From contig NZ_CP045178.1 in the NCBI RefSeq assembly GCF_009296025.1, positions 3,286,001 through 3,350,000 of the forward strand: 64,000 bases of DNA, given 5' to 3'. Source of the DNA: Streptomyces tsukubensis. Its GTDB lineage: Bacteria > Actinomycetota > Actinomycetes > Streptomycetales > Streptomycetaceae. Positions 36,993-54,446 of this stretch are shown here, piece after piece. The notes under the pieces were generated by a model. The model searched no databases, was not told the origin of the DNA, and saw only the letters and a list, made by a program, of their open reading frames with translations. Every line of letters begins with the position of its first letter. Within the stretch, counting starts at the first letter, position 1. The position numbers and the translations under genes are program-made.

Positions 36993-38165
36993 TCAGCCGG
37001 CCACGCGCTCCCCCGCCCGCCACACCCCGATGACCAGGGGGACGCCTGGCCGGTAGGCGAGGTGGACGTGGCTCGGGGCGTCCAGGACCGCGAGGTCCGC
37101 GCGGGCCCCCGGGCTGAGCCTGCCCACGTCCGTGCGGCGCAGGGCGCGGGCGCCGCCCGCTGTCGCCGACCACACGGCCTCGTCGGGGGTCATGCCCATG
37201 TCCCGTACGGCGAGTGCGACGCAGAACGGCATCGACGACGTGAACGAGGAGCCCGGGTTGCAGTCGGTGGAGAGCGCCACCGTGGCCCCCGCGTCCAGCA
37301 GCCTGCGCGCGTCGGGCCACTGGGCGCGGGTGGAGAACTCGGCGCCCGGCAGCAGGGTCGCCACCGTCCCGCCCTGCGCGAGGGCGTCCACGTCGGCGTC
37401 GGTGAGGTGGGTGCAGTGGTCGGCGCTGGCCGCGTCCAGCTCCACACCGAGCTGGACCCCTGGACCGTACGAGAGCTGGTTGGCGTGGATGCGCGGGACC
37501 AGCCCCTTCGCCCGGCCCGCCGTCAGGATCGCGCGGGCCTGGTCGCCGTCGAAGGCGCCCTTCTCGCAGAAGACGTCGATCCACTTGGCGTACGGGGCGC
37601 AGGCGTCCAGCATCTCGCCGGTGACCAGTTCCACGTAGGCGGCGGGGTCCTCGGCGAGTTCGGGCGCGACGATGTGCGCGCCGAGGTAGGTGACCTCGTC
37701 GGTGTGGCCGGACGCGATGCGCAGGGCCCTGGACTCGTCGTGCGTGGTCAGGCCGTAGCCGGACTTGGTCTCCATCGTGGTGGTGCCCTGGCGCAGGGCC
37801 TCCGCGAGGTAACGGGCGACGGTGGCGCTCAGCTCCTCGTCGGTGGCGGCGCGGGTCGCGGCGACGGTGGTGCGGATACCGCCCGCGCTGTAGGCGCGGC
37901 CCGACATCCTGGCGTTGAACTCCTGGGTCCTGTCGCCGCCGAAGACCAGGTGCGCGTGCGAGTCCACGAATCCGGGGACGACGGCCCGGCCGCCCACGTC
38001 CGAGACCGTGTCCGTCCCGGGCGCCCGGCCCGCCGGCCCCGCCCAGGCGATGTGGTCGTCCTCGATGACGAGGGCCGCGTCGGTGATCAGGCCGAGTGGT
38101 CCCTCGCCGATTTCCGGGTCGTTGGTGACGAGACTCCCGATACCGGTGAGCAGGGTGGTCGTCAT
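36993..38165 (-). CDS. hutI: Imidazolonepropionase
   Basis: Third step of histidine degradation: hydrolyses 4-imidazolone-5-propionate to N-formimidoyl-L-glutamate. Amidohydrolase-superfamily metal motif [18 protein letters not shown]; further signatures [39 protein letters not shown] and [17 protein letters not shown]. At 390 residues it is full length. It is the last gene of the minus-strand hut group, 133 bases after hutF. Confidence 0.95.
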
Positions 38166-38298: not shown

Positions 38299-39645
38299 TC
38301 ATGCGCGCAGTGCCCCGATGGCCGCCGCCAGTTCGGCCGCCGGGTGGTCCACCAGCGCGTGCTTCCCGTCGCGTACGACGTGGCGGCCGCCGACCACCGT
38401 GTGGCGCACGTCGGAGGCGGTGGCGGCGAAGACCGCGGTCTCCGCGCCGAGCCTGGCGGGCTGGCCCGTGGTGCGTACCGAGTCGAGGTCGATGGTGGTG
38501 AGGTCGGCGAGCGCGCCGCGTTCGATGGTGCCCGCGTCGTCCCAGCCGAGCGCCGCCCGGCCGCTCTCGGTGGCGGCGCGCAGCAGCGCCGCCGCCGTCC
38601 AGTGGCCTCGGGTGCGGGTGCGCAGGCGCTCGTTCAGCTCCATGGCGCGCGCCTCCTCGAACGGGTCGATGACGGCGTGGCTGTCACTGCCGAGCGACAG
38701 GGGGCTGCCCGCCGCCTGGAGTCGGGCGGCGGGCCCGATCCCGTCGGCCAGGTCGCGTTCGGTGGTGGGGCACATGCAGGTGCCCGTACCCGAGGTGCCG
38801 AGCAGCGCGATGTCCTCGTCCGTGAGGTGCGTGTTGTGGACGCCGGTGGTGCGCGGTCCCAGTACGCCGTGGTCGGAGAGGAGCTGCGTCGGGGTGCGGC
38901 CGTGGGCGGCGAGGCAGCCCTCGTTCTCGGCCGTCTGCTCGGAGAGGTGGACATGGAGCGGAGCCCCGCGCTCCGCGGCCCACCCGGCGACCGTGGAGAG
39001 CTGGTCGGCGGGGACCGCGCGCACGGAGTGCACGGCCGCGCCGATCCGTGCGTGGCTCGTGTCCTTGAGGAGTGCGGCCCGCCGCCCCCAGGTGTCCGCG
39101 TCGCCGTCGGAGAAGCGGAGTTGGTGGCGGTCGGGGGCCGCCCCGAACCCGGAGGACAGATACGCGGTGTCGAGCAGGGTGATGCGGATACCGGCGTCGG
39201 AGGCCGCCGCGATGAGCGCCTCCCCCATGGCGTTCGGGTCGTCGTAGGGAGTGCCGTCCTGCGCGTGGTGGACGTAGTGGAACTCGCCGACGCAGGTGAT
39301 GCCCGCGAGCGCCATCTCGGCGTACACGGCGCGGGCCAGCGCGTGGTACGTGTCGGGGGTGAGCCGCGCGGCCACCTGGTACATGGACTCGCGCCACGTC
39401 CAGAAGGTGCCGCTGCCCACCTGGACGCGGGAGCGCAGGGCGCGGTGGAAGGCGTGCGAGTGGGTGTTGGCGAGGCCGGGCAGGGTCAGGCCGCGCAGCA
39501 CGGTGGCGCCGGGCGGAGGTGTCTCCGTGCCGGTCTCCGCCGCTGTGCGGACCTCGGTGATCCTGCCGTCCTCGGTCTCGACCGTCACGCCGGGCTCCAC
39601 GTGGGTGGAGAGCCAGGCGTGCTCCAGCCAGTAGGTCATTTGCAC
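38299..39645 (-). CDS. hutF: Formimidoylglutamate deiminase
   Basis: Converts N-formimidoyl-L-glutamate to N-formyl-L-glutamate and ammonia. Metal-dependent amidohydrolase: [51 protein letters not shown], and a late segment [21 protein letters not shown]. The 448 residues are normal for HutF. It overlaps the M20 gene by 10 bases, indicating an operon. HutF implies the five-step pathway that ends with an N-formylglutamate deformylase. Confidence 0.9.
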
Positions 39646-40874
39646 GCCAAGCCCTCCAGTACGTCGGCCAGTGCGGTGACCCCGGCCAGGCAGTCGTCCT
39701 CGGCCGCGTGTTCCTCGGGCGAGTGCGAGACGCCGGTGGGGTTCCGTACGAACAGCATGGCGGTCGGAACGGAGGCGGACAGAATGCCCGCGTCGTGTCC
39801 GGCGCCCGTGCCGAGGACGGGGATCCGCCGCCCGGTCCCCTCGCCGTGTCCCGCGACACCGAGCAGCCTGGCCATCTCGTCGCGCAGGGCGTGCCCGAAC
39901 TCGACGACGGGGGTGAACGACTCCCGTACGACCGTCAGGTCGACGCCGTCGCTCCGCGCCGCCTCCTCGGCTGCCTGTTCGATGGCGGTGACCACCGTGT
40001 CCAGGGTCTCCTGGTCGGGCGCGCGGGAGTCGAGCCAGCCCCGTACGAGTGAGGGGATGGCGTTGACGCCGTTCGGCTCGACGGAGATCTTGCCGAAGGT
40101 GGCGACGGCCCCGGCGAGGCGTGCTCGTTCGCGGGCGGCGAGGACGGTTCGCGCGTAGGGCAGCATCGGATCGCGGCGGTCCTCCAGCCGGGTGGTGCCC
40201 GCGTGGTTGGCCTCGCCGTGGAAGTCGAAGCGCCAGCGGCCGTGCGGCCAGATGGCGCTGGCGATGCCGACCCGGTCGCCACTCAGGTCGAGGGCCCTGC
40301 CCTGTTCGACGTGCAGTTCCACGAAGGCGCCGATCCTGCCGAGCCTGTCGGGGTCGGCGCCGATGTTCTCCGGGTCGTGCCCGGCCCGCTCCATGGCCTG
40401 CGGCAGGCTGACGCCGTCCGCGTCCTTCAGCTCGTACGCCTGCTCGCGGGTGAGCTGTCCCGCGGCGAGGCGGGAGCCCACGCAGGCGAGGCCGAAGCGG
40501 GCCCCCTCCTCGTCCACGAAGTTGGTGATGGCCAGGGGCCGGCCGAACTCCACTCCCCGGTGGCGGAGTTCGTCGAGCGCGGCGAAGGAGGAGATCACTC
40601 CGAGCGGCCCGTCAAAGGCGCCGCCGTCGGGGACGGAGTCCAGGTGGGAGCCGGTGACGACGGCGTCGCCCGCTGTCGGGTCACCGAGCCAGGCCCACTG
40701 GTTGCCGTTGCGGTCGGTCTCGTGGGTGAGCCCCCGCGCGGTGGCCTGTGCCTCGAACCAGTCTCGGCAGTCTGCGTCGGCGCCGGTCCAGGCGCTGCGC
40801 CGGTAGCCGCCCGAGCCCGCGTCGCGGCCGATCGGCAGCAGCTCGGCCCACATGGACTCGAAACCGGCGCTCAA
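39636..40874 (-). CDS. M20-family amidohydrolase (allantoate amidohydrolase-like) in the hut operon
   Basis: A 412-residue zinc amidohydrolase of the AllC/carbamoylase group. Motifs are [65 protein letters not shown] and [11 protein letters not shown]. Homology alone suggests allantoate or N-carbamoyl-amino-acid hydrolysis. But it lies between hutF and hutU with 4- and 10-base overlaps, and no classical HutG is present, so I infer it hydrolyses N-formylglutamate to glutamate and formate. The family call is firm; the substrate is inference. Confidence 0.85.
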
Positions 40875-42535
40875 CGGTCCTCGCCCTCACGCATCGGGAT
40901 CCTGACGCCCTGCTCGTCCGCGGTGGTCGCGGCGATGTCGTATCCGGCGTCGACGTGCCTGATGACGCCCATGCCCGGGTCGTTGGTGAGCACCCGGCGG
41001 ATCTTCTCGCCCGCGAGCTTCGTGCCGTCGGCGACGGAGACCTGGCCCGCGTGGATGGAGCGGCCCATGCCGACGCCGCCGCCGTGGTGGATGGAGACCC
41101 AGGAGGCGCCGGAGGCCACGTTGACCATGGCGTTGAGCAGCGGCCAGTCGGCGATGGCGTCGGAGCCGTCGAGCATGGCCTCGGTCTCCCGGTAGGGGGA
41201 GGCCACGGAGCCGGTGTCGAGGTGGTCGCGGCCGATGACCAGGGGCGCGGCCAGTTCGCCCGAGGCCACCATGTCGTTGAAGCGCTCGCCCGCCTTGTCG
41301 CGCTCGCCCTGTCCGAGCCAGCAGATACGGGCGGGCAGGCCCTGGAAGTGGACGCGCTCGCCTGCCAGTTTGATCCAGCGGCGCAGCGACTCGTTCTGCG
41401 GGAAGAGGTCGAGGATCGCCTTGTCCGTCTTGTGGATGTCGGACGCCTCGCCGGAGAGCGCCGCCCACCGGAACGGGCCCTTGCCCTCGCAGAACAGCGG
41501 CCTGATGTAGGCGGGGACGAAGCCGGGGAAGGCGAAGGCGCGGTCGTAGCCGACGAGCTGGGCCTCGCCCCGGATGCTGTTGCCGTAGTCGAAGACCTCG
41601 GCGCCCGCGTCCATGAAGCCGACCATCGCTTCGACGTGCTTGGCCATCGATTCGCGGGAGCGCGTGGTGAAGTCGGCGGGCTTCTCGGCCGCGTACGTCG
41701 CCATGTCGGCGAAGTCGATGCCGATGGGGAGGTAGGAGAGCGGGTCGTGGGCGCTGGTCTGGTCGGTGACGATGTCGATGGGCGCGCCCTCGGCCAGCAT
41801 CCGCGGCAGCAGCTCCGCCGCGTTGCCGAGCAGGCCGATGGAGAGCGGACGGCGGGCGTCGCGGGCCTCGGTGGCGAGCTGGAGCGCGTGCTGGAGCGAG
41901 TCGGCCTTGACGTCGAGGTAGGCGTGTTCGATGCGGCGGTCGATGGCGCGCGGGTCGCAGTCGATACAGATCGCGACGCCGTCGTTCATCGTCACGGCCA
42001 GCGGCTGGGCGCCGCCCATGCCGCCGAGCCCCGCGGTGAGGGTGATCGTCCCCGCCAGCGTGCCGTTGAACCGCTTGGCGGCGACGGCGGCGAACGTCTC
42101 GTAGGTGCCCTGGAGGATGCCCTGGGTGCCGATGTAGATCCAGGACCCGGCGGTCATCTGGCCGTACATGGTCAGGCCGAGCTGTTCGAGGCGGCGGAAC
42201 TCCTCCCAGTTGGCCCAGTCGCCCACCAGGTTGGAGTTGGCGAGGAGTACGCGCGGGGCCCACTCGTGGGTCTGCATGACACCGACGGGCCGCCCGGACT
42301 GGACGAGCATCGTCTCGTCCTGCTTGAGCGTGCGCAGCGTACGGACCATGGCGTCGAAGGAGCGCCAGTCGCGGGCCGCCTTGCCGGTGCCGCCGTAGAC
42401 GACGAGCTTGTCGGGGTGCTCGGCGACCTCGGGGTCGAGGTTGTTCTGGAGCATCCGCAGCGCGGCTTCCTGCTGCCACCCCAGGGCGCTCAGTTCGCTG
42501 CCCCGCGGGGCTCGTACGGGGCGGGGTCCTGACAT
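40871..42535 (-). CDS. hutU: Urocanate hydratase
   Basis: Adds water to urocanate to give imidazolonepropionate, the second step of histidine degradation, using tightly bound NAD+. At 554 residues it is full length. Signatures are [58 protein letters not shown] (NAD binding), [10 protein letters not shown] and the catalytic-cysteine region [18 protein letters not shown] 42535 is preceded by gggaggcagcc. First gene of the operon; hutH is not in the window. Confidence 0.96.
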
Positions 42536-42572: not shown

Positions 42573-42650
42573 CACATCTGGTCGGCACATCTGGTCGGAC
42601 GCGTCCGATCGGGCACGTCCGATCGCACACATCCGATTATTCACATCCTG
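42573..42650. promoter_or_regulatory. Iteron-like operator array between hutU and the PLP decarboxylase gene
   Basis: Two adjacent identical 13-mers (cacatctggtcgg at 42573 and 42586) are followed by three 14-bp units (gtccgatcgggcac at 42603, gtccgatcgcacac at 42617, atccgattattcac at 42631). A perfect palindrome tcggacgcgtccga sits at 42595-42608. A shared core close to CAC(A/G)TC(C/T)G(A/G)TC at about one helical turn and a third suggests cooperative binding of a regulator between divergent promoters. Confidence 0.6.
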
Positions 42651-42678
42651 CGCTTCTGAATAGATCTAGTCAATAGCC

Positions 42679-47694: not shown

Positions 47695-48531
47695 CTACTC
47701 CACGAACAGCCCGCGCTCCGCCGCCTCCACGTCGAACGCGTCGAGCCGCTCCTGCGCCGCGGGCAGGCTGTCGCACATCGCCTCAAGCAGCACTCGGCCG
47801 AGCAGCATCGGGCCGCAGGCCGTGTCGAAGGCGAGGCCGGTGCCGACCGCCGCCGGGATCAACAGGTCGGAGTGGGCGGCGACGGGCGCGAACGCCGAGT
47901 CCGCGACGGTGACCACCGTCAGTCCTCGGCTGCGGGCGAGCGCGAGGGCGTCGACCACCTCGCGCGGGTGCCTGGGCAGCGCGAAGCAGAGCAGGGTGGT
48001 GGCTCCGGCGCGCACGGCCGAGTCGATCCGGTCGGTGAGCATCGTGCCGCCCTCGTCGAGCAGCCTGACATCGGGGTGGACCTTGGCGGCGAAGTAGGAG
48101 AAGCCGTACGCCTGCGAGGCGGCGGCGCGCAGCCCCAGGACGAGCAGCGGCTTGGAGGCGGCGAGCAGCCGGCCCGCCTCCTCGACGGGGGCCGGGTCGG
48201 CGAGGAGTTCGGCGAGTCTGCGCAGGTTCTCCAACTCGCCCTCGACGGCCTGCTGGTACTCGTTGCGGGCGGTGGTGCCGACCGGGGTCTCGGGGGGCGC
48301 GACCTCGCGCAGGTGCCTGCGCAGCGCCGGGTAGCCGTCGAAGCCGAGGGCGACGGCGAAGCGGGTGACCGACGGCTGGCTGACGCCCGCGAGTTCGGCC
48401 AGTTCGACGCTGGAGAGGAACGGCACGTCCCCGGCCTTGCGCACCATGCAGTGCGCGATGCGCCGCTGGGTCGGCGTCAGCCGGTGCCCTTCGAACAGTG
48501 CCTGGAGCCGGCCGGCCGCACTGTCGCTCAT
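47695..48531 (-). CDS. MurR/RpiR family transcriptional regulator (HTH-SIS)
   Basis: A 278-residue regulator. The HTH_6 domain (1-77) reads LTPTQRRIAHCMVRKAGDVPFLSSVELAELAGVSQPSVTRFAVALGFDGYPALRRHL. The SIS sugar-phosphate-type domain (about 120-250) has LLVLGLRAAASQAYGFSYFAAK, LLCFALPRHPREVVDALALARSRGLTVVTVADS and DLLIPAAVGT. Here the effector may be a nitrogenous compound rather than a sugar, given the NCS1 permease next door. Divergent from the permease; the shared 39-bp motif upstream suggests autoregulation. Confidence 0.92.
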   Translation of the reverse strand: MSDSAAGRLQALFEGHRLTPTQRRIAHCMVRKAGDVPFLSSVELAELAGVSQPSVTRFAVALGFDGYPALRRHLREVAPPETPVGTTARNEYQQAVEGELENLRRLAELLADPAPVEEAGRLLAASKPLLVLGLRAAASQAYGFSYFAAKVHPDVRLLDEGGTMLTDRIDSAVRAGATTLLCFALPRHPREVVDALALARSRGLTVVTVADSAFAPVAAHSDLLIPAAVGTGLAFDTACGPMLLGRVLLEAMCDSLPAAQERLDAFDVEAAERGLFVE

Positions 48532-48590: not shown

Positions 48591-48629
48591 AATATTCAGC
48601 CACCCATGACACTGCATGAGTGTATGCAG
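48591..48629. promoter_or_regulatory. Composite motif site 1 (upstream of the rpiR-type gene)
   Basis: AATATTCAG at 48591-48599, then CTGCAT-N6-ATGCAG at 48612-48629, a perfect 6-bp inverted repeat. The left part starts 21 bases before the inverted repeat, exactly as in sites 2 and 3. It lies 60-98 bases upstream of the regulator start codon. Confidence 0.7.
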
Positions 48630-48723
48630 CAGCGCCCCGGAGACGCCAGCGTCCGGCCGCTCCGACCTGACCACCCGACCGACCCCACTGAACCACCCGT
48701 AACAGGGGATTTACCTGAAACCG

Positions 48724-48768
48724 TTGACAAATATTCAGTCAACGAGAACTCTGCATGCATGTATGCAA
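48724..48768 (+). promoter_or_regulatory. TTGACA box and composite motif site 2 (upstream of the NCS1 gene)
   Basis: A consensus -35 hexamer TTGACA (48724-48729) runs into AATATTCAG (48730-48738), followed by CTGCAT-N6-ATGCAA (48751-48768). Binding at the inverted repeat would cover the -10 region and block transcription. Confidence 0.72.
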
Positions 48769-48882
48769 CTCGCTGTTCATGATCGTGAGCACGCCCCGAG
48801 GGTGTGTTCGCGGAGGCGACGAACGGGTTCAAGGGTTCAAAGACTCCAAGGGGTCAAAGGTTCAAGGTACGGAGAGAGACAT

Positions 48883-50304
48883 ATGGCCGAGCTGGTAGAG
48901 CGGCGCTCCATCGACGTCGTACCCGACGAGGAGCGGCACGGCACCGCCTTCTCCCAGTTCACCCTCTGGCTCGGGGCCAACCTCCAGATCACGACCCTGG
49001 TCACGGGTGGTCTCGCGGTGGTCTTCGGCGGGGACGTGGTGTGGTCGGTCCTGGGACTGCTCGCCGGGAACCTGGCCGGTGGCGCCGTCATGGCACTGCA
49101 CTCGGCCCAGGGCCCGAAGCTCGGCATGCCGCAGATGATCTCGTCGCGGGCGCAGTTCGGCGTCAAGGGCGCCGTCGTACCACTGGCCCTGGTCATCGTC
49201 ATGTACATCGGCTTCTTCGCCAGTGGCACGGTGCTCGCGGGGCAGGCGGTCGGTGAACTGACCCACCTCGGCGATGTCACCGGCATCATCATCTTCGCCC
49301 TCGTCACCGCCGTGGTCGCGGCCATCGGCTACCGGGTGATCCACACTCTCGGCCGGGTCGCGAGCGTCATCTGCGTACTGGCCTTCCTCTATCTGGGCGT
49401 CCGGCTGCTCGGCAAGATCGACCTCGGTACGGTCGTCTCCGAGAACCACTCCTTCCACCTGCCGATGTTCCTGCTGGCGATGGCGCTCTCCGCCTCCTGG
49501 CAGCTCGCCTTCGGCCCGTACGTCGCGGACTACTCGCGCTATCTGCCGCGCTCGACGAGCGGCCGGGCCACCTTCTGGTGGACGCTCGGCGGCACCACGC
49601 TGGGCTCGCAGTGGTCGATGACGTTCGGCGTACTGATCGCCGCGACGGCGGGTGACGCCTTCGTGGACAACCAGGTCGGCTACGTGGTGGGGCTCGGCGG
49701 GACCGGCCTGATCGCCTCGTTCCTCTACTTCGTGATCGCCCTCGGCAAGCTCACCATCAATGTGCTCGACACCTACGGCGGCTTCATGTCGATCGTGACC
49801 AGCGTCAGCGGCTTCCGCGGCCAGAAAGAGGTCACACAGCGCGGCCGGAGCCTGTACATCGCGGGAATCATGATCGCGGGCACGGTGGTCGCCCTCATCG
49901 GCAGGAACTCCTTCCTCGACTCGTTCAAGGACTTCCTGCTCTTCCTGCTGACCTTCTTCACCCCGTGGTCGGCGATCAACCTGGTCGACTACTACCTGAT
50001 CTCACGCGAACGCTACGACGTGCCCGCGCTGTTCGACGCGACGGGACGCTACGGCGGCTGGCGCTGGCAGGCGCTCACCGTCTACGGGATCGGTCTGGTC
50101 GCCCAGTTCCCGTTCCTCTCCACCGGCTTCTACACCGGCCCGCTGGTGGACCCGCTGGGCGGCGCGGACATCTCCTGGATCGTGGGACTGATCGTGCCCG
50201 CCGTCCTGTACTGGCTGATCTCGGGCCGCGGGCGCGACACGGGCACCTTCGACGGAGCGGCCCTGCCGGAGCAGGGAGCGGCGGAGGCGTCGCTCAGCCG
50301 CTGA
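48883..50304 (+). CDS. NCS1-family purine/cytosine-type permease
   Basis: Secondary transporter of 473 residues with about 12 membrane helices. It starts MAELVERRSIDVVPDEERHGTAFSQFTLWLGANLQITTLVTGGLAVVFG, typical of the cytosine/purine/uracil/thiamine/allantoin family. It continues with SSRAQFGVKGAVVPLALVIVMYIGF and FFTPWSAINLVDYYLISRERYDV. ATG 48883 is preceded by ggagag. The substrate cannot be told from sequence; a nucleobase, hydantoin or related compound is likely. Its promoter carries composite motif site 2. Confidence 0.92.
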   Translation: MAELVERRSIDVVPDEERHGTAFSQFTLWLGANLQITTLVTGGLAVVFGGDVVWSVLGLLAGNLAGGAVMALHSAQGPKLGMPQMISSRAQFGVKGAVVPLALVIVMYIGFFASGTVLAGQAVGELTHLGDVTGIIIFALVTAVVAAIGYRVIHTLGRVASVICVLAFLYLGVRLLGKIDLGTVVSENHSFHLPMFLLAMALSASWQLAFGPYVADYSRYLPRSTSGRATFWWTLGGTTLGSQWSMTFGVLIAATAGDAFVDNQVGYVVGLGGTGLIASFLYFVIALGKLTINVLDTYGGFMSIVTSVSGFRGQKEVTQRGRSLYIAGIMIAGTVVALIGRNSFLDSFKDFLLFLLTFFTPWSAINLVDYYLISRERYDVPALFDATGRYGGWRWQALTVYGIGLVAQFPFLSTGFYTGPLVDPLGGADISWIVGLIVPAVLYWLISGRGRDTGTFDGAALPEQGAAEASLSR

Positions 50305-50321
50305 CCACACCGCGCACCCTT

Positions 50322-50366
50322 CGGCCACCGGCCCCGACGGCAGCACGCCGTCGGGGCCGGTGGCCG
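50322..50366 (+). terminator. Strong terminator after the NCS1 gene
   Basis: A perfect 19-bp stem (cggccaccggccccgacgg with its complement at 50348-50366) has a 7-base loop and is followed by ttt. It separates the permease from the ABC operon, so site 3 must serve a separate promoter. Confidence 0.92.
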
Positions 50367-50551
50367 TTTCGTACGCGGCGAGGCAACCGCGCCGGGCATG
50401 GCCGAACATCGCCCCTCCGCGCCGCCCTCCGTACCGCAGCCCTCGGCGCGATCACCCCGTCCACCGTCCACATCCACCTCGGAAATACCGCCTTTCCGGA
50501 CGGTATGTCCCCGCCGCTATCAATCCGTAACGCGCTGTTGACCCGGAGCCA

Positions 50552-50597
50552 TTGACAACGTATTCAGCCACGCAGAACCCTGCATGACGATATGCAG
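50552..50597 (+). promoter_or_regulatory. TTGACA box and composite motif site 3 (upstream of the ABC operon)
   Basis: TTGACA (50552-50557), then CGTATTCAG (50559-50567) and CTGCAT-N6-ATGCAG (50580-50597), with the same 21-base register as sites 1 and 2. The last base is 18 bases before the chosen ATG of the ATPase gene. Confidence 0.72.
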
Positions 50598-50615: not shown

Positions 50616-51734
50616 ATGATCACATTTGACGCAGTGCACAAACGGTTCCCGAACGGTACGACCGCTGTCGACGACCTGAGCCTCGACATGCCCGAGGGCG
50701 GTGTGACGGTCCTCGTCGGCTCCTCCGGATGCGGCAAGACCACCACGCTCAGAATGATCAACCGCATGCTCGACCCCACCTCAGGGACCATCAGGGTGGG
50801 CGGCAAGGATGTACTCGAACAGGACGCGGCGCTGCTCAGGCGCTCCATCGGCTATGTGATCCAGCAGTCGGGGCTCTTCCCGCACCGCACGGTCCTCGAC
50901 AATGTGGCGACCGTGCCACTGCTGCTCGGCTGGGGCCGCAGAAAGGCGCGGGCGCGCGCGTCCGAACTACTGGAGACGGTGGGCCTGACCGCCGAGTCGG
51001 GCAAGCGCTACCCGCATCAGCTCTCCGGCGGCCAGCAGCAACGGGTGGGCGTGGCCAGGGCGTTGGCGGCCGACCCGCCCGTGCTCCTGATGGACGAGCC
51101 GTTCGGCGCGGTCGACCCGGTCGTCCGCACCCAGCTCCAGGACGAACTGATGCGGCTACAGAGCGAGTTGAACAAGACCATCGTCTTCGTCACGCACGAC
51201 ATCGACGAGGCCGTCCGGCTAGGCGACCGCATAGCGGTCTTCCGCACCGGCGGCCGGCTCGTGCAGTGCGCCGAACCCGGGGAGCTGCTCGCCCGCCCCG
51301 CCGACGCCTTCGTGGCGGACTTCCTCGGCGCGGAACGCGGCCTGAAACTCCTGTCGTTGAGCACGCTCAAGGACGTGGAGTACGAGGAGGCGGCCACCGT
51401 GCACGCGGACGAGCCCGCGCCCTCCCGTACCTCGGGCGGACCGCGCTGGCTCCTGGTCCTCTCGCCCGCGCGTACGCCGCTGGGCTGGCTCGACACCGAC
51501 GAGCACGACGGGGGCGGGACAGCGGCGGCCGCCCCGCTCCTCCCCGTACGCCCGCTGCGGGGCACCGACTCGCTGCTCTCCGCCCTCAACGAGTCCGTGG
51601 CCTCCCCGAGCGGCCTCGTCGCCCGCGTCGACGACTCGGGCGCCCTGATGGGCGTCATCTCGCGCGAGGAGATCCACACCCACGCGGGCCGCACGCACAC
51701 GGCCGCCGCACGCCCCTCGGGCAGTGCCGTATGA
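50616..51734 (+). CDS. OpuC/ProV-type ABC transporter ATP-binding protein
   Basis: ATPase subunit of an osmoprotectant-type importer, 372 residues. Walker A is GSSGCGKT (35-42), the signature LSGGQQQR (136-143) and Walker B VLLMDEP (156-162), with FVTHDIDEAVRLGDRI as the switch region. After about 240 residues comes a tail with a degenerate CBS-like half (DSLLSALNESVASPSGLVARVDDSGALMGVISREEI). ATG 50616 has gaggg upstream; ATG 50592 lies inside the operator and is less likely. It overlaps the next gene by 4 bases (ATGA). Confidence 0.93.
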   Translation: MITFDAVHKRFPNGTTAVDDLSLDMPEGGVTVLVGSSGCGKTTTLRMINRMLDPTSGTIRVGGKDVLEQDAALLRRSIGYVIQQSGLFPHRTVLDNVATVPLLLGWGRRKARARASELLETVGLTAESGKRYPHQLSGGQQQRVGVARALAADPPVLLMDEPFGAVDPVVRTQLQDELMRLQSELNKTIVFVTHDIDEAVRLGDRIAVFRTGGRLVQCAEPGELLARPADAFVADFLGAERGLKLLSLSTLKDVEYEEAATVHADEPAPSRTSGGPRWLLVLSPARTPLGWLDTDEHDGGGTAAAAPLLPVRPLRGTDSLLSALNESVASPSGLVARVDDSGALMGVISREEIHTHAGRTHTAAARPSGSAV

Positions 51735-52375
51735 GCGTCGAATGGTCGTGGATAGCGGATCACGCGGGCGATCTGACCACCCTCGCCCTCTCCCACCTGC
51801 AAGCGGCGCTCTCCGCCGTCTTCTTCGGCCTGCTGATCGCCCTGCCGCTCGCCGTCGTCGCCCACCGGATCCGTCCGCTGCGCGGCTTCCTCCTCGGGCT
51901 CTCCAACATCCTCTTCACCATCCCGTCCATCGCCGTCTTCGTGCTGCTGCTGCCGGTCTCGGGACTGACCCGTACGACCACGGTCATCGGCCTGACGATC
52001 TACACCCTGACGGTCCTGCTCAGGAACACCGTCGAAGGGCTCGACGCGGTGCCCGCGCGGGCACGGGAGGCGTCCAAGGCCATGGGAACCCGGCCACTGC
52101 GCACCCTGCTGACCGTCGAACTCCCCCTCGCCCTCCCGGTCATCATGGCGGGTGTGCGGATCGCGACGATCATGTCGATCTCGCTGGTCTCGGTCGCCAC
52201 GTACATCGGCGACGGCGGTCTCGGGCAGCTCTTCACCGACGGCTTCCAGCGCGACTTCCCGACGCCCGTGGTGGCCGGGGTGGTGCTGACGCTGCTGCTC
52301 GCGCTGGTGGCGGACGCGCTCCTCGTCGCCGTGCAGTACGCGCTCACCCCCTGGACCAGGAAGCGAGGTGCCTGA
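51731..52375 (+). CDS. ABC transporter permease (OpuCB-type)
   Basis: A 214-residue membrane subunit with five to six helices. The MetI-like signature is EASKAMGTRPLRTLLTVELPLALPVIMAGVRIATIMSISLVSVATYIGDGGLGQL, where the EAA loop contacts the ATPase. It pairs with the second permease at 52380 as the two halves of the translocation pore. Confidence 0.92.
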   Translation: MSVEWSWIADHAGDLTTLALSHLQAALSAVFFGLLIALPLAVVAHRIRPLRGFLLGLSNILFTIPSIAVFVLLLPVSGLTRTTTVIGLTIYTLTVLLRNTVEGLDAVPARAREASKAMGTRPLRTLLTVELPLALPVIMAGVRIATIMSISLVSVATYIGDGGLGQLFTDGFQRDFPTPVVAGVVLTLLLALVADALLVAVQYALTPWTRKRGA

Positions 52376-52379
52376 CGCC

Positions 52380-53048
52380 ATGTGGACACTCTTCTCCGAC
52401 CTCGGCTCCTGGCTCGTCAGCGGCGAGCAGTGGAGCGGCACCGACGGCATCGGCCACCGGCTGCTCGAACACCTCCAGTACTCGCTGCTCGCCACCCTCA
52501 TCGCCGCCGTCATCGCCCTCCCCGTGGGGCTGCTGATCGGGCATACGGGCAAGGGGGCGTTCCTCGCCATCAACCTGGCGAGCTTCGGCCGGGCGCTGCC
52601 CACCGTGGGTCTCGTCGTCCTCGTCTTCCTGGCCGCGGGCCTGTCGATGACCCCGGTCTACGTGGCGCTGGTCGCCCTCGCCGTACCTGCCATCGTCACC
52701 AACACCTACGCGGGGATGACCGCGGTCGACCCCGAGGTGCGCGACGCGGCCCGCGGGCAGGGGATGCGCGGCCACCAGGTCCTGTTCCGCGTCGAGTTGC
52801 CGCTCGCGATGCCCCTGGTCATGACAGGGCTGCGGCTCGCCCTGATCCAGGTGGTCTCCACGGCGACCATCGCGGCCTACGTCAGCTTCGGCGGGCTCGG
52901 CCGCTACGTGTTCGACGGTCTCGCCCAGCGCGACCTGGTGCAGGTGCTGGGCGGCGCGGTACTGGTCGCCGTCGTCGCCATCGTTCTGGACCTCGCCCTC
53001 TCGGGCCTTCAGCGTGCGCTCTTCAGGCACCGCCCCGCGACCCGCTGA
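52380..53048 (+). CDS. ABC transporter permease (OpuCD-type)
   Basis: A 222-residue membrane subunit: HLQYSLLATLIAAVIALPVGLLIGHTGKG, FGRALPTVGLVVLVFL, and the EAA-type loop VRDAARGQGMRGHQVLFRVELPLAMPLVMTGLRLALIQVVSTATIAAYVSFGGLG. ATG 52380 (MWTLFSDLG) was chosen. A GTG at 52368, overlapping the previous stop with aggaag upstream, would add four residues. Confidence 0.92.
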   Translation: MWTLFSDLGSWLVSGEQWSGTDGIGHRLLEHLQYSLLATLIAAVIALPVGLLIGHTGKGAFLAINLASFGRALPTVGLVVLVFLAAGLSMTPVYVALVALAVPAIVTNTYAGMTAVDPEVRDAARGQGMRGHQVLFRVELPLAMPLVMTGLRLALIQVVSTATIAAYVSFGGLGRYVFDGLAQRDLVQVLGGAVLVAVVAIVLDLALSGLQRALFRHRPATR

Positions 53049-53097
53049 ACCGGCCACCCGGCCCTCAACCCGACAACCAGTGCTGGAGCCCCCTCTC

Positions 53098-54033
53098 ATG
53101 ACCATGAACCGAAGGAAGCTGCTCGGCGGGCTGCTGGCCGGCGCGTCCGTGCCCGTGCTCGCCGCGTGCGGCGGCGGCATCACCTCACTCGACGGGGAGG
53201 GCGGTGGCGGAGCGGGCGGCGGTTCGAGCAAGGGCGGCCTGACGATCGGCACCGCCAACTTCACGGAGAACCAGGTACTCGGCTACCTCTACGCGGCCGT
53301 ACTCGGGCACGCGGGCATCAAGACCAAGGTCCGCCCCAACCTGGGCTCGCGCGAGATCCTGATCCCCGCCCTCAAGGGCGGTGACCTGGACCTGCTCCCC
53401 GAGTACCAGGGCGCCCTGCTGCACTACCTGGACGCGAAGTCACGCGTCTCCGAGGAGGGCGAGATGCAGAACGCCCTCACCCTCGCCCTCCCCGACGGCC
53501 TCCAGATACTCCCCTACGGGCTCGCCGAGGACTCCGACGCCTTCGTCGTCACCAGGGCCACCGCACGGAAGTACGGCCTGAAGACCCTCGCCGACCTGAC
53601 GAAACAGAACGGGAAGCTGGTCATGGGGGCCGCGGCCGAGGTCAAGAAGCGCGAGGTGGGCGTGGTGGGCCTGAAGGAGGTGTACGGGGTCGAGTTCAAG
53701 GAGTTCAAGTCGCTCGACTCGTCGGGGCCGCTGGTCAAGGGGGCACTGCGCAAGGGCGATGTGGACGTGGCCAACCTCTTCACCACCGACACGGACATCG
53801 CCTCCGAGGACTGGGTCGTCCTCCAGGACCCCAAGAACCTGATCCCCGGCCAGCGGGTCGTCCCGCTGATCGCCGACCGCTCGTCGGACCCGAAGGTACG
53901 CAAGGCGCTGGCCCGTCTCGGCAACGCACTGTCCACGGAGGACCTGACGGAGCTGAACCGCCTGGTCGACAAGGAGAAGAAGGACCCCGACGACGTGGCG
54001 CGGGACTGGGCCAGGAAGCACGGGCTGGCGTAG
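53098..54033 (+). CDS. Lipoprotein substrate-binding protein (OpuAC/glycine-betaine type)
   Basis: Extracellular binding lipoprotein of 311 residues. The signal MNRRKLLGGLLAGASVPVLAAC has the lipobox LAAC (C24), followed by a Gly/Ser linker. The OpuAC domain begins LTIGTANFTENQVLGYLYAAVLGHAGI and contains LGSREILIPALKGGDLDLLPEYQGALLHY. Family members bind choline, betaine, carnitine or related quaternary amines; aromatic-box residues cannot be judged reliably here. Last gene of the four-gene operon. Confidence 0.92.
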   Translation: MTMNRRKLLGGLLAGASVPVLAACGGGITSLDGEGGGGAGGGSSKGGLTIGTANFTENQVLGYLYAAVLGHAGIKTKVRPNLGSREILIPALKGGDLDLLPEYQGALLHYLDAKSRVSEEGEMQNALTLALPDGLQILPYGLAEDSDAFVVTRATARKYGLKTLADLTKQNGKLVMGAAAEVKKREVGVVGLKEVYGVEFKEFKSLDSSGPLVKGALRKGDVDVANLFTTDTDIASEDWVVLQDPKNLIPGQRVVPLIADRSSDPKVRKALARLGNALSTEDLTELNRLVDKEKKDPDDVARDWARKHGLA

Positions 54034-54265: not shown

Positions 54266-54446
54266 CTAGGGCGTGTTTCGAAAGTAGCGTCGTCCGCCCG
54301 GAGGGCGGGGCCCGCGGCGTCTGGTGCGGTGCATCGCAAGGCGGAGGGTCGTCCGCGTACTGGGTGTACGTGGGCGATCCCGACAACGCGGCGAGGTGCC
54401 GTGCCAGGCGTCGCGGGCCGGACGGGACTTTCGAAACACGCCCTAG
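54266..54446. mobile_element. 181-bp MITE-like element with perfect terminal inverted repeats
   Basis: The ends are ctagggcgtgtttcgaaagt (54266-54285) and its exact complement (54427-54446), including a CTAG at each side. IS630-type elements insert at CTAG and duplicate TA, which fits a non-autonomous IS630-like MITE. The 140-base interior is GC-rich, contains no transposase, and can partly fold on itself. From memory, similar ends occur in many Streptomyces genomes. Confidence 0.82.

Follow-up and report, generated by a model that had tools for sequence, protein, structure and literature searches.

A predicted operator that may place histidine-utilisation genes of Streptomyces under an RpiR-type regulator

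Known regulators of the RpiR family serve sugar or sugar-phosphate genes, typically respond to a sugar-phosphate effector and act as tetramers. The regulator of histidine use in Streptomyces was, to our knowledge, not identified in classical work. Here, we analyse a 64,000-nt stretch of Streptomyces tsukubensis DNA (the window; all coordinates are window positions unless a locus label is given) in which a three-part site recurs upstream of an RpiR-type regulator gene (rpiR), an NCS1-type permease gene and an ABC importer operon, and in a related form at the promoter of hutU, the gene for urocanate hydratase. We consider it quite probable that this site is the predicted operator of one regulon bound by the neighbouring RpiR, which would be the histidine-utilisation regulator of Streptomyces. 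The genes leading from histidine to formimidoylglutamate in S. coelicolor are SCO3070, SCO3073 and SCO4932, with SCO3073 encoding HutU, according to the consulted parts of PMC6207324 and PMC2000904; the former part also names the three as predicted common targets for raising secondary metabolite production, so that their regulator is of practical interest. Searches of the open-access literature, with subscription papers outside their scope, returned no report of such a regulon among the matches listed.

The site in the window and at the histidine promoters

Three copies of TATTCAG-N12-CTGCAT-N6-ATGCAG are present in the window, all on the + strand (Table 1). An earlier, sequence-only reading had placed a 39-bp unit at 48591, 48730 and 50559, upstream of rpiR, the permease gene and the ABC operon; both positions and gene assignments are confirmed, the unit beginning two bases ahead of TATTCAG. 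The reported spacing of 21 bases holds as a start-to-start distance, the gap between TATTCAG and CTGCAT being 12 bases each time, and the imperfect arm noticed at site 2 is ATGCAA for ATGCAG (last base A). Site 1 is found ~60 bp from rpiR, and an equivalent is present in 55 of the 57 loci where rpiR stands alone. The same reading described a TTGACA box as fused to two of the sites. TTGACA indeed abuts the unit at site 2, but stands one base apart at site 3, and there is none at site 1. TTGAC is found just upstream of all 28 ABC sites of relatives and of only 2 of 49 other sites, and TTGACA is best read as the predicted -35 box of the target promoter. With TTGACA taken as -35, the -10 elements of the ABC and NCS1 promoters are weak (AACCCT and AACTCT, respectively).

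The composite nature of the site is real, albeit of a different kind than proposed. As far as sequence comparison can define it, the operator is made of three related half-sites (TATTCAG, CTGCAT and ATGCAG), the left gap measuring 11 or 12 bases. The predicted half-site is (T/C)ATTCA(G/C) or its near twin ATGCA(G/C), and the basic predicted operator is an inverted pair, ATTCAG-N11/12-CTG(C/A)AT. At rpiR, ABC, NCS1 and hutH (histidine ammonia-lyase) the third half-site follows six bases on, while hutU carries two half-sites.

With up to three mismatches, the full pattern has 3 matches in the whole 8.63 Mb genome, compared to 0 for the reversed control; the motif is not spread over many unrelated loci. 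At up to two mismatches, 73 of 150 genomes have it, counting the own one; every one of these belongs to the window's genus, of which 91 genomes were covered. The reversed pattern gives 3 matches in the same 150 genomes. The shorter expression ATTCASN{10,12}STGMAT matches six places in the whole genome, five of which are the hutU, rpiR, NCS1, ABC and hutH promoters. As its reversed form gives 3 matches, a few chance matches are to be expected, yet not five on five related promoters. The sixth match (G000:C2:7541680, L241) is located within a small open reading frame and was taken as chance, in keeping with the reversed count.

For comparison, the surroundings of 88 rpiR genes and of further motif sites were taken. 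A weight matrix was built from the first of two locus sets; because these share assemblies, the second set is not independent. When the window was scanned with a flexible gap, the hutU promoter site came next after the three sites and the frames overlapping them. On the hutU strand (-), a predicted -35 box (TTGACT) and a predicted -10 box (CAGGAT) are 17 bases apart, with TATTCAG within the spacer and TGAATA after the -10. TTGACT, TATTCA and TGAAT appear in the same order and spacing in 30/30 hutU loci (the 30 best matches, own included), and 65 of the 68 hutU genes of the second set carry the pattern. The hutH gene of the same genome, 2.2 Mb away, carries ATTCAC-N11-CTGAAT-ATGGAT-ATGCAC overlapping its start codon. 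All of 42 hutH upstream regions fit a relaxed pattern and 34 a strict one, compared to 0 in reversed sequence; these 42 were taken out of 91 in the genus, and two of them, the own region and that of G051, had been noticed beforehand, the latter through the motif itself. In 40 of the 42, a likely promoter of the form TGAC-N17..19-T(A/T)nnnT surrounds the site. The half-site pattern common to hutU and hutH is an inverted ATTCA(G/C)-N11/12-(C)TG(A/C)AT flanking the -10. As both genes carry sites, the set would be a regulon for histidine utilisation and not for uptake alone. The small uptake regulon controlling itself, as first proposed, stands for regulator, permease and importer but was incomplete, as hutU and hutH would also belong to it. 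As a side observation, the predicted hutH -10 ends ~7 bp before the start codon (e.g. L162:1438-1473), and judging from this distance hutH looks leaderless.

Table 1 Positions of the features discussed, in window coordinates
Feature	Position	Strand	Remark
Site 1	48593..48629	+	TATTCAG-N12-CTGCATGAGTGTATGCAG; upstream of rpiR, pointing away from rpiR
Site 2	48732..48768	+	TATTCAG-N12-CTGCATGCATGTATGCAA; NCS1 permease promoter
Site 3	50561..50597	+	TATTCAG-N12-CTGCATGACGATATGCAG; ABC operon promoter
Fourth site, hutU promoter	42638..42673	.	TATTCAC-N11-CTGAATA; strand-neutral; flexible-gap scan of window
rpiR, RpiR-type regulator	47695..48531	-	HTH_6 43.1 bits (cut-off 28.3)
hutU, urocanate hydratase	40871..42535	-	
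M20 amidohydrolase adjoining hutU	39636..40874	-	above NF006770 allantoate amidohydrolase cut-off
hutF, formimidoylglutamate deiminase	38299..39645	-	above cut-off
hutI, imidazolonepropionase	36993..38165	-	above cut-off
TTGACA, likely -35 of NCS1 promoter	48724..48729	+	inferred from position
TTGACA, likely -35 of ABC promoter	50552..50557	+	TTGAC within 12 bases upstream in 28/28 relatives' ABC sites
NCS1-type permease (PF02133)	48883..50304	+	
ABC importer operon	50616..54033	+	ATPase, two permeases, binding protein
ABC importer ATPase, ProV/OpuC-like	50616..51734	+	
ABC importer permease 1	51731..52375	+	
ABC importer permease 2	52380..53048	+	
Substrate-binding protein (PF04069 OpuAC)	53098..54033	+	
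GTAAC-N6-TTTAC, GlnR-box-like repeat	48699..48714	+	upstream of NCS1 promoter
GTAAC-N6-TTGAC, GlnR-box-like repeat	50527..50542	+	upstream of ABC promoter

Conservation among relatives and the genes next to the sites

Sites in relatives fall into three classes, i.e. before rpiR (pointing away), before the ABC ATPase gene and before the NCS1 gene. Of the loci compared, 85 of 88 in the first set and 77 of 80 in the second have a site at the 5' end of either rpiR or a unit formed by rpiR and the lyase-like gene HAL2 (see below); the reversed sequence of the two sets (904 kb and 1394 kb) gives 0 matches. The ABC-type site is likewise conserved upstream of orthologues, being present in 28/28 other operons at 19–30 bp before the start of the ATPase match. 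Five of these operons (G052, G056, G065, G066 and G020) are remote from rpiR or on a contig of their own. In three diverged operons the distance is 18 bp. The 28 were defined by a binding-protein search at an identity of at least 69%, with 27 full length and one cut off (G085); ABC ATPases at 33–38% identity that have no site (L142, L147, L285, L325 and L351) were regarded as unrelated and are not counted as orthologues. NCS1 genes that do not directly follow the binding-protein gene have a site in 4/4 (first set) and 11/11 cases (second set), counting genes read from near their start, some of whose sites are common to rpiR; matches starting after residue 100 (L072, L279 twice, L292 and L303) were dropped from this count. 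The 14 NCS1 genes directly downstream of the binding-protein gene have no site of their own.

A scan with a fixed gap of 12 bases, covering canonical hutH, two other lyase loci (L163 and L164) and the motif-poor rpiR loci, missed the hutH site of the own genome and found few sites at the motif-poor loci. With an 11-base gap allowed, the hutH site appeared, as did the majority of the rpiR sites that had been missed; no site was seen at the two other lyase genes of the own genome in the flexible-gap scan. Nine first-set sites fall outside the position rule. Four of these precede HAL2 (L078, L087, L103 and L095:6136), L098 and L134 resemble hutU sites at the end of the stretch, L095:152 precedes the NCS1 gene of G036 by its coordinates, and L092 and L118, which have the same letters, stay unexplained. 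A single second-set site is outside the rule (L331), a locus that is not among the site-less ones under a wider rule. It should be noted that loci L152–L159 and L161 were chosen because of the motif; orthologue searches were made regardless of it.

In many relatives, HAL2 separates the site from rpiR; it has the orientation of rpiR and diverges from the ABC operon. Counting HAL2 genes covered from near their start, an upstream site is present in 23/24 (first set) and 35/35 cases (second set). HAL2 would be a member of the regulon in these relatives. Sites before HAL2-rpiR are also kept where no ABC operon was detected alongside (L078, L080, L103 and L108), which suggests an operator used in both directions. 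The window's genome has no HAL2 at the corresponding position; a 49% relative is encoded elsewhere, with no site there. The protein belongs to the ammonia-lyase superfamily and has GSVGTGD where histidine ammonia-lyase has an Ala-Ser-Gly-type triad; the corresponding stretch reads GSLGASGD or GSLGCSGD in two lyases that the own genome encodes. Ergothionase is active without MIO as a cofactor. HAL2 resembles the ergothionase of Treponema denticola (6s7j) in a full-length match (1.4e-43), in the missing triad (SIGEGD) and in a common QDPxxFRC, but differs in scoring better to a probable histidine ammonia-lyase (7tqr, 4.3e-53). HAL2 (L104:6390-7832 and orthologues) finds 3199 database proteins at E 1e-60; among the 120 of these listed, most sources give the name "aromatic amino acid lyase" or "histidine ammonia-lyase".

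The closest solved relative of the importer's binding protein in the PDB is EgtUC (3.4e-28). EgtU is an ergothioneine (ET) importer for which an EgtUC-ET crystal structure is described in the consulted part of PMC9732360. Residue numbers of EgtU were mapped onto the window protein from alignments. Like EgtU, the window protein belongs to PF04069 and keeps the equivalents of Glu375 and Arg379. Unlike it, Ala-Asn-Phe replaces Lys242-Ile243-Gly244, and the cage residues F293, Y341, Y419 and Y443 correspond to Tyr, Asp, Phe and Gln. The same residues are found at these positions in 27 other full orthologues and in G091, a genome of the same order outside the genus. The importer is accordingly OpuC-like by family, as had been stated, but two of the four aromatics of the quaternary-amine cage are missing. 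The possibility that HAL2 and the ABC operon together serve uptake and breakdown of ergothioneine was rejected, as the binding-protein residues do not support it; ergothioneine is not a supported candidate substrate of the importer, and a substrate that bears an imidazole is plausible. The NCS1 protein has only weak relatives in the PDB, the hydantoin permease Mhp1 among them (5.6e-9).

A second input is suggested by repeats upstream of the ABC and NCS1 promoters. Of the 28 ABC promoters of relatives, 21 have GTnAC-N6-TTnAC at 17–18 (or 29) bases ahead of TATTCAG, compared to 16 of 5600 shuffles and 1 of 49 non-ABC sites, with a pattern that was chosen after the promoters had been seen. In the window, the two repeats likewise stand at a fixed distance from sites 2 and 3. 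GlnR boxes are given as GTnAC-n6-GTnAC or gTnAc-n6-GaAAc in the consulted part of PMC3087709; the boxes of the window and its relatives are a variant with TTnAC as second half. Putative nitrogen control of the ABC and NCS1 promoters by GlnR may be envisaged.

Three further observations concern the surroundings of the sites. A second, diverged ABC operon (57–62% for the ATPase) with its own copy of the site is present at L150:4082-8822 (G032), L156 and L157; in G032 it adjoins a second rpiR, 72% identical to that of the window, possibly a duplicated regulon. Within ~60 bp beyond the site, L080, L098, L102, L118 and others show a recurring inverted repeat, approximately gggggctagcccc, followed by a(c/g)tg, which is perhaps the promoter of the next gene. 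Just past the ABC operon, a 181-bp stretch (54266-54446) spotted by eye has perfect 20-bp inverted repeats at its ends (CTAGGGCGTGTTTCGAAAGT) and looks like a small mobile element.

The regulator and the competing explanations

The case for RpiR as the binder starts from its own gene, which carries a putative operator at its promoter. HTH_6 is the sole Pfam family above cut-off in the protein, and no GntR model was found up to E 10. The SIS domain scores 17.3 bits against a Pfam cut-off of 25, compared to 29.4 for the G091 relative, which is weakly in keeping with a changed ligand as far as domain scores go. RpiR relatives are found in 104 of 150 genomes at E 1e-20, and the DNA-reading stretch GVSQPSVTRFA is identical in 33 of 36 RpiR sequences, the other three being unmatched by the search pattern. 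Among the 15 genomes that belong to the order but not to the genus, 13 encode an RpiR relative on one contig with hutH or hutU. In 12 of these it is within ~4 kb of hutH, and in the thirteenth (G091) ~5 kb from hutU; in G104 and G105 (980 and 770 contigs) it is on a different contig. Eight of the 13 loci were inspected, chosen from search coordinates, and all eight confirm the proximity, with RpiR proteins 45–50% identical. In G094, G098, G099 and G101, rpiR follows hutH at 0.1–0.3 kb on the same strand, and G091 has rpiR, HAL2 (divergent), ABC genes, hutU and an amidohydrolase in one stretch. Seven hutU-hutH gaps of the sister genera hold three half-sites each, a number reached by 7 to 54 of 2000 single-base shuffles; three of the gaps are near-identical, and the seven are not independent cases.

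Several results weigh against RpiR as the regulator of this set. A site is missing before rpiR in three loci of each set (L109, L150 and L151; L309, L343 and L311). The hutU pattern is lacking in L291, L326 and L338 (3/68, second set) and in L130 (1/2, rpiR loci of the first set), and the right half-sites at hutH overlap the start codon, so that their conservation may be partly coding. The strict pattern is absent from all inspected outgroup loci, and the HAL2-ABC gap of G091 has two half-sites without significant enrichment (137 of 2000 shuffles). In a midpoint-rooted tree of 36 RpiRs, the Streptomyces regulator forms its own clade and the hut-adjacent RpiRs of the sister genera group with a second Streptomyces RpiR. 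No RpiR is found at E 1e-20 in G008 and G050, both of which keep the hutH site; G008 keeps the hutU site too, and hutU of G050 has ATTCAG but not TGAAT. Both genomes are drafts (740 and 1770 contigs). Upstream of hutU, their contigs run on for 1.6 and 3.1 kb, respectively, and may stop short of rpiR; the absence of RpiR is hence unproven there. In G030, the closest RpiR is a distant one (best E 2.8e-57), hutU gives no match and the hutH site is conserved. The second Streptomyces RpiR was considered as an alternative regulator and rejected, as 10 of its loci showed no hut, HAL2 or ABC neighbours.

The alternative that survives best is recognition of the hutH and hutU half-sites, perhaps of those everywhere, by a different DNA-binding protein, rpiR being just one more target. 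It draws on the hutH sites, and the hutU site of G008, that persist in genomes for which the search gave no close RpiR, and on a difference in form, the pair at hutU and hutH being ATTCA...TGAAT and the sites at rpiR, ABC and NCS1 being ATTCA...TGCAT...ATGCA. Still, the genomes in question are drafts or have no hutU, the site is tied to rpiR itself in nearly all loci of both sets, and RpiR-family genes adjoin hut genes in sister genera, which makes this explanation rather improbable. Far less likely is that TATTCAG is a -10 box and the palindrome alone the operator: TTGACC does stand 17 bp upstream of TATTCA at site 3, but the first T is C in 26% of matrix sites with ATTCA near-invariant, where a -10 box would be expected to hold T at -12, site 1 (the only one viewed in this respect) has no good -35 upstream by eye, and the likely promoters of hutU and hutH place ATTCA in their spacers. 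That the palindrome is an RNA hairpin or mRNA leader element hardly deserves credit when judged by position rather than by RNA folding, for although CTGCAT-N6-ATGCAG could fold in the ABC leader near the start codon, the rpiR site points away from the gene behind it in every rpiR row compared and at hutU and hutH one half-site is in the predicted -35/-10 spacer, outside the transcript.

Proposed mechanism and comparison with known systems

A single binding protein, most simply RpiR, was the original suggestion, which agrees with the sites found at rpiR, the permease gene and the ABC genes. RpiR as binder, the promoter boxes and GlnR binding are predictions from sequence. RpiR would bind half-sites across the promoter core, one in the -35/-10 spacer and the other between the -10 and the transcription start. 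This pair would bracket the -10 at hutU and hutH, with the same geometry predicted at ABC and NCS1. Half-sites bracketing the -10 lie where repressors sit, on which ground repression is proposed: RpiR probably represses hutH and hutU, its own gene, and the genes of the NCS1 permease and the OpuC-like importer. A tetramer, the state given above for the family, would suit three half-sites. The protein would cover the promoter until a pathway metabolite releases it, most likely urocanate or a histidine derivative, upon which hutH, hutU with its neighbours, rpiR, the permease and the importer would be expressed together. The GlnR-like boxes upstream of ABC and NCS1 would add nitrogen starvation as a second, activating input.

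A wider version is conceivable, albeit one we lean against at present. RpiR, with an altered sugar-phosphate domain, would be a genus-wide repressor of histidine catabolism sensing urocanate or another imidazole, and its regulon would hold an uncharacterised route in which the OpuC-like importer without a full cage takes in a histidine derivative, to be turned by the cofactor-less HAL2 into urocanate or a closely related compound that HutU would use. If the regulon proposed here is real, it names the regulator of histidine use in Streptomyces, extends the RpiR family from sugar metabolism to amino-acid breakdown, provides a precise operator for following the regulon across many genomes, and gives a probable pathway to the importer, the permease and the lyase-like protein family.

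Among described systems, the window protein is like the RpiR/MurR family (HexR, MurR and RpiR, with HTH_6 and SIS domains) in its HTH_6 domain, which is above cut-off, and in the presence of a site at the promoter of its own gene. It is unlike HexR, MurR and RpiR in a SIS domain below the Pfam cut-off and in its predicted targets, which are genes of histidine use. The role proposed for it resembles that of HutC, the GntR-family hut repressor of Pseudomonas, in that one repressor would serve the genes of histidine breakdown, as the consulted parts of PMC12977541 and PMC12772324 describe for HutC. The likeness is one of role, HutC and RpiR belonging to unrelated protein families.

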